Below are positions 45,544 to 49,388 of a stretch of DNA of 62,513 nucleotides, in pieces; position 1 is the first letter of the stretch, and every line of letters starts with the position of its first letter. Source of the stretch: Bacteroidota bacterium (GTDB lineage: Bacteria > Bacteroidota > Bacteroidia > Chitinophagales > Saprospiraceae); assembly GCA_963169325.1 (NCBI GenBank), contig CAUJEY010000338.1, positions 1 through 62,513 on the forward strand, in the 5' to 3' direction. A program made the position numbers and the translations under genes. The notes under the pieces were generated by a model. The model saw only the letters and a list, made by a program, of their open reading frames with translations, was not told the DNA's origin and searched no databases.

Positions 45544-46749
45544 TCAGGTACGCTCCAACACCACGGCATACCCTTGTCCTACTCCGATACACATGGTGCA
45601 TAGCGCATAACGCCCGTTCGTATGGTGCAATTCGCGTGCAGCGGTCAGGATCAGCCGGGCGCCCGACATGCCCAGGGGGTGTCCCAATGCAATAGCGCCG
45701 CCATTCGGGTTGAGTCGCGGATCGTCGTCGGCCAGGTCGAGTTGGCGGGTACAGGCGAGTACTTGGGCGGCGAACGCTTCGTTCAGTTCAATGACGGAAA
45801 TATCTTCCATTCGCAGGCCTGCCTTGGCCAACGCATTGCGAGAAGCCTGTACCGGCCCGATGCCCATAATCCGGGGCTCCACACCTACCACGGCCGAACT
45901 CACCATCCGGGCTAACGGTTTCAATTGGTGTTGCTCCATGCCTGTTTCCGATGCAATGAGCAAGGCGGCGGCGCCGTCGTTCAGGCCGGATGCATTGCCG
46001 GCTGTCACGGTCCCTTCCTTTTTGAAAGCCGGTTTAAGTTTGGCTAAAACCTCCAGAGAGGTATCCGGTTTGATAAACTCATCCTGTGCTACCAGAACGG
46101 TCTCGTTTTTGGGTCGTGGTGTCGGGACCGGGATGATTTCTTCGTTCAGCCGTCCGGTACTCCGGGCCCGGGCAGCCTTTTGCTGGCTCCACAGGGCAAA
46201 TTTATCCTGATCCTCCCGGCTGATCCGGTATAGATCCGCCAGGTTTTCCGCGGTTTGTCCCATAGCCTCGGTTCCGTATAAATCCTGCATGCGCGGGTTG
46301 ATGAATCGCCAGCCGAAACTGGAATCGAACATCTGGGCGTCCGTGCCGAAGGGTTTTGCCGATTTGCTTAGTACATAAGGCGCTCTGGTCATGTGTTCCA
46401 CGCCGCCGGCAAGGAAGATGTCGCCATCGCCCGCCTGAACGGCCCGGCCGGCATGCACGACCGCAGCCATCCCACTGGCGCAAAGACGGTTGACGGTTTC
46501 GCCTGGAACCGACCAAGGCAGGCCTGCCAATAACAAAGCCATTCGGGCGACGTTTCGGTTGTCTTCACCGGCCTGGTTGGCGCATCCAAGAATGACGTCG
46601 GCAATGGCCGCCGGATCGAGCGCAGGGTGCCGTTCCAGGAGTTTCTGTAAAACATGTGCTGCCAGGTCGTCGGTACGCACCGGCGACAGGCTGCCGCCAA
46701 AGCTGCCGATCGGCGTTCGCACGCCATCGATGATAAATATATCTTTCAA
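45544..46749 (-). CDS. Acetyl-CoA acyltransferase (thiolase)
   Basis: 401 aa. Condenses or thiolytically cleaves 3-ketoacyl-CoA, in beta-oxidation or related pathways. The active-site Cys90 is in NRLCASGMAAV, the His is in GGAIALGHPLGMSGAR and the second Cys in CTMCIGVGQG. NEAFAAQ is also present. I take the TTG at 46749, giving MKDIFIIDGVRTPIG, the standard thiolase start. The upstream ATG (46797) lies before an exact TACCTTTG promoter element at 46784-46791 and would be outside the transcript. It is divergent from the cysE leader region. Confidence 0.93.
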   Translation of the reverse strand: MKDIFIIDGVRTPIGSFGGSLSPVRTDDLAAHVLQKLLERHPALDPAAIADVILGCANQAGEDNRNVARMALLLAGLPWSVPGETVNRLCASGMAAVVHAGRAVQAGDGDIFLAGGVEHMTRAPYVLSKSAKPFGTDAQMFDSSFGWRFINPRMQDLYGTEAMGQTAENLADLYRISREDQDKFALWSQQKAARARSTGRLNEEIIPVPTPRPKNETVLVAQDEFIKPDTSLEVLAKLKPAFKKEGTVTAGNASGLNDGAAALLIASETGMEQHQLKPLARMVSSAVVGVEPRIMGIGPVQASRNALAKAGLRMEDISVIELNEAFAAQVLACTRQLDLADDDPRLNPNGGAIALGHPLGMSGARLILTAARELHHTNGRYALCTMCIGVGQGYAVVLERT

Positions 46750-46783
46750 GTGTACAATCAGTGTGGTTATTATAATAGGTGTG

Positions 46784-46791
46784 CAAAGGTA
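46784..46791 (-). promoter_or_regulatory. -7 element of the thiolase gene
   Basis: TACCTTTG on the minus strand, 35 nt upstream of the TTG start and downstream of the alternative ATG, which decides the start choice. Confidence 0.5.
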
Positions 46792-46861
46792 CCTCAACCC
46801 GGAGATTGAACGATCTTTTATCCGGGTTTGCTGTGATTTTACCGTTAAAAAACAAATCCGG

Positions 46862-46893
46862 TTTGGTTTTTGTTAAGGACGGGTATATGTTTG
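46862..46893 (+). promoter_or_regulatory. Promoter of the cysE leader
   Basis: TTTG (46862-46865), 20-nt spacer, TATGTTTG (46886-46893). Both elements match the Bacteroidota consensus exactly, with normal spacing. Start of transcription is expected near 46900, about 10 nt before the leader ATG. Confidence 0.7.
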
Positions 46894-46910
46894 CAGTCAA
46901 AGAAAAGATA

Positions 46911-47000
46911 ATGAACAGGTCAATTGCTCCGGTTAATGCATGTTGTTGCTGTTGTTCCTCCGTTACGGGGCGAGCGTGCAACTACTGTAGGGCAAAATAA
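46911..47000 (+). CDS. Cysteine-rich leader peptide upstream of cysE
   Basis: 29 codons, ATG 46911 to TAA 46998-47000, encoding MNRSIAPVNACCCCCSSVT followed by GRACNYCRAK. Seven of 29 residues are Cys, five of them consecutive (TGT TGT TGC TGT TGT, 46941-46955). It sits between a consensus promoter and an intrinsic terminator just before cysE, the layout of a transcription attenuator. Low Cys-tRNA would stall the ribosome on the Cys run and change leader folding. Poly-Cys leader ORFs are known cysteine attenuators in mycobacteria; I know of no Bacteroidota case. The peptide could alternatively bind metal, but its position favours regulation. Confidence 0.75.
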   Translation: MNRSIAPVNACCCCCSSVTGRACNYCRAK

Positions 47001-47018
47001 TACTAGTAAAATTATTTT
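46994..47018 (+). promoter_or_regulatory. Short AT hairpin overlapping the leader stop codon
   Basis: AAAATAAT (46994-47001) and ATTATTTT (47011-47018) around a 9-nt loop, overlapping the TAA of the Cys leader ORF. It could be an alternative or pause structure ahead of the terminator. I do not see an obvious long antiterminator pairing. Confidence 0.35.
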
Positions 47019-47032
47019 CTCCATAGTTGAAA

Positions 47033-47071
47033 ACACCCTTTCCCGGCGATCCGGGAAAGGGTGTTTTTTTT
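47033..47071 (+). terminator. Intrinsic terminator/attenuator before cysE
   Basis: 14-bp perfect stem ACACCCTTTCCCGG (47033-47046) / CCGGGAAAGGGTGT (47051-47064), 4-nt loop, eight T residues (47064-47071). It begins 32 nt after the leader stop codon and ends 13 nt before the cysE ATG. Confidence 0.93.
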
Positions 47072-47084
47072 AATTCTGTCTGAT

Positions 47085-47915
47085 ATGAAATCCAGTTTGG
47101 AACATTTTTTTACGCAACTCGACAGCGACCGGGTACGCTTTACCACCTTAGTTCCGCCCAAATCGGAAGCGCATGAACTGGCCGATGAATTGGTTAATTT
47201 TTTGTTTCCGGTTCATTGCCACCATCCCCGGCCGGCAAAAGTACAATACGCCGTGTTGAGCGATGATCTGGAGCAATTGTTGCGCCCGCTCCTGCACGAT
47301 AAAAATGGCGCTGCCGCCAAACTTGCCCAAGCGTTTTTCTCCCGGTTGCCGGCGGTGCGGGTAGCATTGCTCGAAGACGCCGAGGCCATTTTGCAATTCG
47401 ACCCGGCCGCCACCTGCATAGAGGAGGTGATTGCTACTTACCCGGGTTTTTATGCCATTTCAATCTACCGGATTGCGCATGAGCTCCACCATTTGGGCGC
47501 TCCTTTGTTGCCCCGGGTTTTTTCCGAATATGTACATGGAAAAACGGGCATCGATATTCATCCGGCGGCATCCATCGGACACTCCTTTTTTATAGATCAC
47601 GGTACCGGTGTGGTCATCGGCGCTACGGCGGTTATTGGGAATAATGTAAAAATTTATCAGGGCGTCACCTTGGGCGCCCTTCAGGTGGATAAATCGCTGG
47701 CCAACGTAAAACGCCACCCGACCATCGAAAACAATTGTATCCTGTATGCCAATAGTACCATTCTGGGCGGCAAAACGGTCATCGGGCATGATTCGGTGAT
47801 TGGCGGTAACTCCTGGGTGACAGCCAGTGTACCCCCGAATTCCATCGTATTGCACCAGCCGCAAGTAAAAGTGCGTACGAAAATGGTGGAGGAGCCATGG
47901 AATTTCGTCATTTAA
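47085..47915 (+). CDS. cysE: Serine O-acetyltransferase
   Basis: 276 aa. Makes O-acetylserine from serine and acetyl-CoA, the first committed step of cysteine synthesis. A helical N-terminal domain (1-~130) is followed by a left-handed beta-helix of hexapeptide repeats (GIDIHPAASIGHSFFIDH, GVVIGATAVIGNNVKIYQ, GKTVIGHDSVIGG). Catalytic His residues lie in HELHHLG and DHGTG. I use ATG 47085, since the frame upstream begins in the terminator. Long N-terminal domain and length resemble the EpsC/SAT type. It is controlled by the Cys leader and terminator upstream, and cysK follows. Confidence 0.95.
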   Translation: MKSSLEHFFTQLDSDRVRFTTLVPPKSEAHELADELVNFLFPVHCHHPRPAKVQYAVLSDDLEQLLRPLLHDKNGAAAKLAQAFFSRLPAVRVALLEDAEAILQFDPAATCIEEVIATYPGFYAISIYRIAHELHHLGAPLLPRVFSEYVHGKTGIDIHPAASIGHSFFIDHGTGVVIGATAVIGNNVKIYQGVTLGALQVDKSLANVKRHPTIENNCILYANSTILGGKTVIGHDSVIGGNSWVTASVPPNSIVLHQPQVKVRTKMVEEPWNFVI

Positions 47916-47923
47916 ATTGGTCA

Positions 47924-48020
47924 TTGGTCGTCATTGATCGTCATTAGTCATTGATCGTCATTGGTCATTGATCGTCATTAGTCATTGATCGTCATTAGTC
48001 ATTGATCGTCATTAGTCATT
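47924..48020. repeat. GTCATTGATC word array between cysE and cysK
   Basis: About ten tandem GTCATTGATC/GTCATTAGTC/GTCATTGGTC words, beginning a few bases after the cysE stop, which itself reads GTCATTTAA. They occupy most of the 144-bp cysE-cysK gap. Direct, not inverted. Confidence 0.9.
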
Positions 48021-48059: not shown

Positions 48060-49007
48060 ATGAAAGCGAACAACATTTTAGACACCATCGGCAATACGCC
48101 GCACGTCCGGATCAACCGGTTATTTGGCCATACGCATGAAGTTTGGATCAAACTGGAGCGCTCCAACCCCGGTGGCAGCATTAAAGACCGGATTGCCTTG
48201 TCCATGATAGAAGAAGCCGAGCGCAAAGGCGAATTACAGCCGGGTAGCATCATTGTGGAACCCACCAGTGGAAACACCGGTATCGGGCTGGCTATGGTTG
48301 CAGCGGTGAAAGGGTATAAACTTATACTGGTTATGCCCGAAAGTATGTCGGTAGAGCGCCGGCGTCTGATGGCGGCTTATGGCGCTCAATTTGACCTGAC
48401 GCCCCGGGAAAAAGGTATGAAAGGCGCTATTGAGCGGGCGCAGGAGCTGTTGCGTGAAATTCCCAATGCGTGGATGCCGCAACAGTTTGAAAATGAGGCA
48501 AATATTGCCATTCACCGGCGCACTACGGCCCAGGAAATACTGGCCGATTTCCCGGAGGGTATCGACTACCTGATCACGGGCGTTGGCACGGGCGGTCATA
48601 TTTCAGCAGTGGGTGCGGTACTGAAGGAAAAATTTCCGCAACTCAAGGTTTTCGCCGTGGAGCCTGCGCTCAGCCCAGTCATTGCAGGCGGCAACCCCGG
48701 ACCGCATCCAATCCAGGGTATTGGCGCCGGTTTTATACCGAAAAACCTGCATACTGACGTGCTTGACGGGGTGATCGCCGTTTCGAAAGAGGAGGCTTTT
48801 GAATTTGCAAAAAGGGCGGCACTGGAGGAGGGGATTTTTGGCGGTATCAGTTCCGGCGCCACGTTGGCCGCTATTGCCCAAAAACTGCCGGAAATGCCCG
48901 CAGGCGCCCGGGTTTTAGGGTTCAATTATGATACCGGTGAGCGATATTTGTCCATCGAAGGATTGTATGAGTGGGAAAGTTTGCATGGGGCGGCATTTAC
49001 CGTCTAA
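48060..49007 (+). CDS. cysK: Cysteine synthase (O-acetylserine sulfhydrylase)
   Basis: 315 aa PLP enzyme converting O-acetylserine and sulfide to cysteine, the step after CysE. The PLP Lys is Lys42 in [25 protein letters not shown] binds substrate, [12 protein letters not shown] anchors the PLP phosphate, and [10 protein letters not shown] is the C-terminal PLP-N1 site. Length and motifs favour CysK over cystathionine synthase. It follows cysE after the GTCATT array and probably belongs to the same attenuated transcript. Confidence 0.95.
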
Positions 49008-49033: not shown

Positions 49034-49180
49034 AGGGTGTTTCAAAGGCGGGGTAAATGTGCCTCTATTTTTGGTTTCTTAGTTACCGGAATTTACCCTA
49101 ATCCGGATGTAATCCCTTACAGGACAGGTCTGTAAGCATAGGGTGTGTCAAACGCCAGGGGCGATATGCCTCTATTTTTG
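49034..49180 (+). repeat. Direct duplication of a 40-bp segment
   Basis: AGGGTGTTTCAAAGGC...GCCTCTATTTTTG at 49034-49073 and a variant at 49140-49180. The second copy is the left end of the large inverted repeat at 49168-49359. Confidence 0.7.
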
Positions 49181-49359
49181 AACGGAATCTTCCTAAAACC
49201 GCGTGTCATGCTGGAAGCATCTGCTTAAACTTAAAACTCATTTTTTCATTAAAAACGGACAAATGTGTCCCGGTTCAACGCAAAATGGTGGTTATCGCTT
49301 GGCCAGATGCTTTCAGCATGACACGCGGTTTTAGGAAGATTCCGTTCAAAAATAGAGGC
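49168..49359. repeat. 56-bp near-perfect inverted repeat (192-bp element)
   Basis: Arms 49168-49223 and 49304-49359 match at 55 of 56 positions and enclose 80 bp without coding potential. Each arm starts at GCCTCTATTTTTG. It fills much of the 535-bp gap after cysK. It could be a MITE-like non-autonomous element or a remnant. No transposase is nearby and no clear target-site duplication was found. Confidence 0.9.
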
Positions 49360-49388
49360 ACCCGGTCCAACAAATCACCGGTACAATG

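Follow-up and report, generated by a model that had tools for sequence, protein, structure and literature searches.

A probable cysteine-responsive attenuator upstream of cysE in a Bacteroidota genome and related poly-cysteine leaders before cysE and cysH

The window, a 62,513-nt stretch of Bacteroidota DNA, contains a short open reading frame (ORF) with a run of cysteine codons, followed by an intrinsic terminator, upstream of cysE and cysK. Very probably, transcription of cysE-cysK is attenuated here through the ribosome, with charged tRNA-Cys as the signal; the initial annotation of the sequence had proposed a cysteine-responsive attenuator. Our computations established the anatomy of the locus, the recurrence of this layout in relatives whose peptides are largely unrelated, and an excess of leader-terminator pairing across the set of such leaders; the recurrence and the pairing both support the attenuator reading. 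Ribosome-mediated attenuators of the trp, his, and ilv type combine a leader ORF that carries codons for the end-product with protector, antiterminator, and terminator structures. The arrangement in the window is like these systems in its end-product codons, its predicted alternative protector, antiterminator, and terminator pairings, and the biosynthetic gene downstream. Unlike them, it would sense cysteine, and it has a Bacteroidota host and a Bacteroidota-type promoter.

The leader ORF (46911-47000, plus strand) has 29 codons and encodes MNRSIAPVNACCCCCSSVTGRACNYCRAK. Leader codons 11-15 (46941-46955, plus strand; TGT TGT TGC TGT TGT) form the run of five cysteines, and two more cysteine codons follow as codons 23 (46977-46979) and 26 (46986-46988), confirming the leader as first annotated. 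Downstream of the leader, an intrinsic terminator (47030-47071, plus strand) consists of a 17-bp stem (47030-47046 paired with 47051-47067), a 4-nt loop, and a run of eight T (47064-47071), with a hairpin energy computed as -28.8 kcal/mol and, in the genome-wide scan, as -24.9 kcal/mol. The eight Ts had been described before, while the stem is longer than the 14 bp then given. The T-run ends at 47071, leaving a 13-nt gap before the cysE ATG at 47085, and cysK is the next gene. Profile matches agree with this gene order and reveal that the genes 3′ of the leader make cysteine: cysE (47085-47915, plus strand) encodes serine O-acetyltransferase (best NCBIfam model TIGR01172, E 7.6e-48, below the curated cut-off), and cysK (48060-49007, plus strand) encodes cysteine synthase A (TIGR01139, 404 bits, cut-off 351). 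A terminator scan of the cysE-cysK gap (47920-48020 area) gave none, and cysK would be co-transcribed with cysE.

The region 46899-47075 folds more stably than expected (z = -5.1), with none of 200 shuffles equally good. In the window, Rfam gave no match at the gathering score to a riboswitch, a T-box, or any other family, and the six sub-threshold matches at 46700-47300 were all taken as chance. The window leader peptide matched no Pfam or NCBIfam model. A thiolase gene (45544-46797, minus strand), divergent from cysE, lies 5′ of the leader region. A minus-strand frame of 138 aa (46565-46981) overlaps the leader's Cys run and is probably spurious because it also overlaps this gene.

The initial annotation had placed a consensus promoter in front of the leader. 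One is present, and its type is that of Bacteroidota rather than sigma70: TTTG (46862-46865), a 20-nt spacer, and TATGTTTG (46886-46893) lie on the plus strand, a TTTG/TAnnTTTG pair that we take to be the Bacteroidota -33/-7 promoter consensus. A sigma70 scan listed nothing at 46862-46893. Judged by the promoter motif only, transcription is predicted to start about 11-13 nt 5′ of the leader ATG. TAnnTTTG occurs within 60 nt 5′ of 15 of 24 leaders, compared with a mean of 1.4 and a maximum of 5 in 200 mononucleotide shuffles.

Folding predicted the alternative structures that an attenuator would need. In the minimum-energy fold without a ribosome, a protector hairpin is predicted at 46938-46988 (plus strand), in which nucleotides of the Cys codons (46942-46943, 46945-46949, and 46953-46955) pair with 46974-46985. 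This partner of the Cys codons is the region that is predicted to form the antiterminator otherwise. In the stalled-ribosome fold, the predicted antiterminator has its 5′ strand at 46961-46978 and its 3′ strand at 47034-47048, which overlaps the terminator in its 5′ arm and loop. A hairpin with a AAAATAAT/ATTATTTT core (46984-47027) is nested between the two strands, all on the plus strand.

In the mechanism we propose, transcription would begin near 46898-46900, and the leader peptide would be translated. With ample Cys-tRNA, the ribosome would reach the stop codon at 46998, making 46961-46978 unavailable to the terminator arm, and the hairpin at 47030-47067 would then stop transcription before cysE. 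With scarce Cys-tRNA, the ribosome would stall on the Cys run (46941-46955); 46961-46978, left uncovered, could then pair with the terminator's 5′ arm, and RNA polymerase would read on into cysE and cysK. Since the terminator far exceeds the antiterminator in strength and wins at equilibrium even in the stalled state (-45.2 kcal/mol versus -23.3 kcal/mol without the 3′ arm), antitermination would have to be kinetic.

An alternative fold to the terminator, which the initial annotation had suggested looking for, is above chance in a set of 24 leader-terminator pairs described below, and the signal from the window by itself is moderate. The window duplex between leader and terminator arm has an energy of -14.5 kcal/mol and ranks fifth of 24, which is not significant against shuffles (p = 0.19), while pairing of the arm in the stalled state is 0.67, compared with 0.35 in shuffles (p = 0.03). 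Taken alone, the window antiterminator is plausible. The argument for the predicted structure is carried by the 24-pair set and by a second leader in the same genome.

This second leader (MNITAQNYMCTCCCCCPRTPKGTLDRYT) lies 5′ of cysH on another contig (G000:C332, locus L166). The gene encodes phosphoadenylyl-sulfate reductase (NF002537, above cut-off). The terminator after the leader has 17 bp and an energy of about -31.2 kcal/mol, and the segment right after the Cys codons forms a duplex of -25.5 kcal/mol with the 5′ arm of the terminator (p = 0.002, 1000 shuffles).

We determined how often such runs occur in the 8.07-Mb genome. Four consecutive TGY codons were found at 123 sites (79+44) and the reversed pattern at 102 (60+42); the bare motif is not enriched and is uninformative as evidence. 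Five consecutive TGY codons gave 26+3 matches versus 7+6 for the reversed pattern, but 17 of the 29 belong to one repeat cluster on contig C162, and the 29 fall at 12 genomic places. Only two of the 12, those at cysE and cysH, have a short ORF with an ATG start and, within 250 nt after it, a strong hairpin and T-run. The remaining 10 overlap stop-to-stop frames of at least 166 codons in another frame or on the other strand. A leader-like match with hairpins (G000:C22, L042) was rejected, as it lies inside a 448-aa frame. The Cys run is thus beyond chance by its context and not as a DNA motif alone.

The layout recurs 5′ of cysE or cysH under seven family labels (f1, f2, f5, f22, f50, f55, and f68), and the relatives are mostly Bacteroidota. 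The check on conservation in relatives, proposed earlier, comes out in favor of the attenuator, with the limit that within the same family the leader is present at two of 55 cysE loci, the window and L081. These 55 loci come from 100 genomes, 55 of which had a cysE match; L063 has no upstream region and L022 only 130 nt. At L081, from another genus, the leader MKMKQSLIIENNRICCCSCCKTTDVR is followed by a terminator whose T-run ends 8 nt 5′ of cysE, and the leader-arm duplex is significant (p = 0.001). Downstream lie a gene for a cysteine synthase, for which CysM is the best model at a score just under cut-off, and then a PF01507 gene. The only same-genus genome searched (G040) had no cysE match at E<=1e-30.

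Leaders were also found beyond the family. A class-wide draw of 295 genomes gave cysE matches in 48 (52 places), and 49 of the 51 places beyond the window's were read, one of them repeating a family locus; leaders were present at L105, L109, L113, L118, L119, and L121. In the neighboring family f2, where 71 of 147 genomes had a cysE match (75 places), 10 of 30 places had leaders (L136-L144 and L154, with L136 the same as L113), a biased sample consisting of the 30 places nearest to the CysE of L113. Among loci of named genomes, 10 of the best 80 matches listed have a leader, eight of them with a terminator by scan. These are from Runella sp. HJF.20 (L269), Runella sp. CRIBMP (L272), Larkinella rosea (L271), Flavobacterium luminosum (L288), Bacteroidales bacterium UBA4814 (L274), and metagenome-assembled genomes (L267, L270, L277, L281, and L285); L270, L272, L281, and L285 repeat or nearly repeat other loci. 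In the Runella-type loci L109, L272, and L269, an ATG aligns by eye with a GTG start.

In two f2 genomes in which cysE is inside an operon, the leader sits further upstream. At L378, cysH-cysD-cysN-cysE-cysK are found with a uroporphyrinogen-III methyltransferase gene, and MLYLHFKLIKCCCSCLE is just 5′ of cysH (L364). In genome G209, the leader is 5′ of cysH (L355). A comparison of how often cysE stands at the front of its operon (five of 132 loci dropped) supports nothing: the first version of the test, with 0 of 17 leader-bearing cysE genes versus 52 of 110 others, is partly circular because the leader itself fills the space, and when measured from the leader start, the counts are four of 17 versus 52 of 110 (p = 0.11).

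Using fixed criteria, we scored 130 cysE upstream regions (<=300 nt), having left out L022 and L063 from 132 because their upstream regions are short. A short ORF with CCC was present in 13 of the 130, compared with one of 130 on the antisense strand, a mean of 0.45 and a maximum of 2 in 20 rounds of shuffling, and none of 86 regions 900-1200 nt upstream. A second criterion, four Cys in eight residues, gave 13 versus one antisense and 0.35 shuffled. These controls bear on the possibility that chance alone produced the ORF and that the hairpin is an ordinary constitutive or insulating terminator. That possibility would fit the lack of enrichment of TGY x4 and the many cysE relatives in the family, most of them, that are without the layout. 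We consider it very unlikely, given the recurrence 5′ of cysE and cysH in many genera, the antisense and shuffle controls, and the second copy in the same genome. The neighboring gene at 45544-46797 also points away from cysE, which leaves no evident transcript from upstream for the hairpin to end.

To look for relatives that have the terminator and lack the Cys run, we scanned 103 cysE loci loosely, and 13 showed a hairpin-plus-T near cysE with no Cys leader. Of five read by eye, those at L010, L026, L087, and L096 follow the stop codon of the preceding gene, and that at L029 does not. In the stretch about 80-140 nt 5′ of cysE at L029, four Gln codons lie in a short ORF (MTVNFQQQQNI) that runs into a strong terminator, which may be chance. 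ORFs from loose scans were discarded by eye for a TTG or GTG start, their distance, few Cys, or a position inside a longer frame (L004, L019, L025, L026, L062, L085, L086, L104, L171, L177, L211, L235, L236, L299, L309, L325, L339, and L359). The discarded ORF at L235 (MSVSLIKNQCVFISGGSCICCLYIMD, 70 nt 5′ of cysH) may be a true leader.

The peptides encoded before cysE have 10-29 residues and little in common beyond the Cys run. Pfam and NCBIfam searches of leader peptides, one with eight peptides and one with five, gave no family match at the curated cut-off. The Cys-rich peptide of L355 hit a bacteriocin model (E = 0.11), far under the cut-off, and this hit was taken as composition. As some relatives have up to seven consecutive Cys, the peptide might itself be functional, for example as a small metal- or sulfur-binding protein sited before cysE for co-expression. 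We regard this as very unlikely: the peptides vary from 10 to about 40 residues and share little sequence outside the Cys run, those scanned match no family at the cut-off used, and the terminator would separate expression of such a peptide from that of cysE.

For each leader-terminator pair, we calculated the best duplex between the terminator's 5′ arm and the leader segment that begins 15 nt past the start of the Cys run and extends as far as the terminator. Across 24 pairs, the mean with the leader's own arm was -12.3 kcal/mol versus -9.15 kcal/mol (sd 0.48) for permuted arms, a difference reached in 0 of 20000 permutations. Fifteen hand-chosen representatives (the weak L137, L277, and L214b are among those not included) gave -14.0 versus -9.97 kcal/mol (sd 0.70; 0 of 20000 permutations). 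Fisher combination gave p = 1.6e-12 for the first 17 pairs and p = 0.003 for seven added later; p-values over the set are optimistic, since visual inspection or a simple scan served to choose the terminators and a number of the f2 leaders are related to one another. The terminators of the 24 pairs lie 23-47 nt past the leader stop, most with a matching antiterminator. L277 and L137 (p about 0.7 for both) showed no antiterminator; the terminator of L137 had been marked by eye. 

The 24 pairs are a selection. Three Cys leaders 5′ of cysE for which the scan found no terminator (L119, L154, and L270) are outside the set, as are L364, whose leader is near the cysH start and has a hairpin, and seven cysH leaders with no clear terminator. 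L272, L281, and L285, near letter-for-letter repeats of L109, L142, and L138, were also left out, and L136 is L113.

Partition functions were calculated for the transcript at the point where RNA polymerase has made the terminator's 5′ arm and loop. The mean probability that the arm pairs with the leader was 0.80 when the ribosome was stalled on the Cys run and fell to 0.24 once it had reached the stop codon; in a transcript free of ribosomes it was 0.60. The drop at the stop codon arises partly because less RNA is free. Shuffled leaders gave 0.48 in the stalled state, and the real leader exceeded its shuffle mean in 24 of 24 cases, L277 narrowly (0.48 versus 0.46).

Leaders before cysH showed two architectures, one with a terminator after the leader, as at L166, and one with no clear terminator. 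At L214 (G016:C56), two complete units of poly-Cys leader and terminator lie in tandem 5′ of cysH. In seven other cysH leaders (L170, L197, and L198 (family f1), L352, L355, L368, and L372), the Cys codons close the ORF or stop just short of its end, and no clear intrinsic terminator follows. The Cys run in these seven reaches CCCCCCC directly before the stop. For L352, a GTG start was assigned by eye, which lengthens the leader. In L368 and L372, from one genus, the pattern is kept and the sequence changed (MNQITHRHSSIAPNGLMCCCCCCC and MTHIKQHHSFIKSAGMMCCFCCCC). Leaders were present at five of the 44 cysH-type loci of family f1 that were read, out of a longer list of places; the upstream sequence at L219, L230, and L234 is shorter than 330 nt. 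In the class-wide draw, which for cysH excludes the window's genome, five of the 29 nearest loci (56 places) have a leader (L352, L355, L364, L368, and L372). Of 30 PF01507 loci, the 26 other than L166 and L168-L170 were mostly CysD-length matches with no convincing leader.

The seven terminator-poor leaders raise the alternative that the poly-Cys ORF acts through Rho or translational coupling, with the hairpin secondary. In the 70 nt past the leader stop, C exceeds G in six of the seven, which would fit Rho but is weak evidence. Rho has also been suggested for actinobacterial Cys leaders without clear terminators (PMC1262725). For the window, this alternative is unlikely, as in all 24 pairs, the window's included, a terminator lies 23-47 nt past the leader stop, in most cases with an antiterminator, and even in the second set L198 (a weak hairpin of -9.0) and L352 (a hairpin 4 nt before five T) may have one.

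Four of the seven terminator-poor leaders have a SAM riboswitch (RF00162, 68.8-85.2 bits) 5′ of the leader. By Rfam, these are at L170 1052-1152, L198 1186-1283 (minus strand), L352 1093-1183, and L355 2500-2643 (minus strand). In an Rfam scan of 73 cysH-type loci, SAM riboswitches were found at four of 10 with a poly-Cys leader and none of 63 without (p about 2e-4, computed by hand on loci fetched with differing flanks). A tentative model, which we hold to be possible though somewhat short of probable, is that Bacteroidota steer sulfate assimilation and cysteine synthesis through two forms of poly-Cys leader 5′ of cysE or cysH. One form would be trp-like, with an intrinsic terminator and sometimes in tandem; the other would have a C-terminal run of up to seven Cys and no clear terminator, would possibly be Rho-dependent, and could follow a SAM riboswitch, such that one leader RNA would read both SAM and Cys-tRNA before cysH. 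Such combinations of SAM riboswitch and poly-Cys leader would be two-input RNA switches for one pathway.

Cysteine attenuators as a kind are already known or predicted elsewhere, in Actinobacteria and for cysS in Rhodobacterales. Mycobacterial poly-Cys ORFs are reportedly the subject of a 2020 study by Canestrari et al., leaderless according to its title. Two papers cite this study (PMC13236596; PMC9094748), and the former gives ilvB1 as a case of ribosome-mediated attenuation. Like the mycobacterial and actinobacterial leaders, those described here have a Cys-codon run in a short ORF 5′ of sulfur assimilation genes. Actinobacterial Cys-codon leaders are without clear terminators (PMC1262725), whereas the window has an intrinsic terminator (47030-47071) and a predicted antiterminator. 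The actinobacterial leaders more closely resemble the cysH leaders with no clear terminator.

The uORFC-8-2 motif 5′ of cysS in Rhodobacterales is a predicted Cys-codon leader followed by an intrinsic terminator, at which stalling is proposed to permit read-through (PMC8632094). Our leaders share this order of Cys-codon leader and intrinsic terminator. By contrast, uORFC-8-2 has two tandem Cys codons, a conserved structure, and an occurrence before cysS in alphaproteobacteria only, whereas here runs of 2-7 Cys occur in peptides that are not conserved, 5′ of cysE or cysH. The window leader, upstream of cysE and with relatives mostly in Bacteroidota, was not assigned to this motif.

Within the same phylum, the accessible portions of three papers describe putative amino-acid attenuators in Flavobacterium psychrophilum (PMC9723704), long 5′ UTRs of Bacteroides thetaiotaomicron that contain short ORFs (PMC7366714), and the Bacteroid-trp motif as cis-regulatory in Bacteroidetes (PMC2864571). 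Together these portions suggest leader-peptide attenuation in the phylum and name no cysteine leader. We found no description of a Bacteroidota cysteine attenuator in the open-access literature searched.

The interest of these leaders lies in their wide occurrence and in the combination of SAM riboswitches with poly-Cys leaders. To our knowledge, little is understood of how Bacteroidota control sulfur assimilation. If our reading is true, a leader-peptide attenuator would explain sulfur control without a dedicated regulator and would be findable from sequence alone. As the leaders recur and change fast, they offer many natural variants of one switch, in which the rules for the choice between terminator and antiterminator are testable.

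We also recorded several features near the leaders and their genes. A conserved sequence, TAGTCYACTA, overlaps the -7 element just 5′ of the leader in seven distinct loci (L113, which is L136, and L137, L138, L139, L140, L142, and L143), with a weaker form in L141, and looks like a putative regulator binding site. TAGTCYAC is absent from both strands of the window, and one more match, at L146, is located elsewhere. In the window, a 17-bp unit (GTCATTGATCGTCATTA) is repeated 5.4 times in tandem at 47930-48020, in the gap between cysE and cysK. An inverted repeat with 95-nt arms that are 81% complementary, separated by a 4-nt loop, lies 3′ of cysK at 49167-49360.
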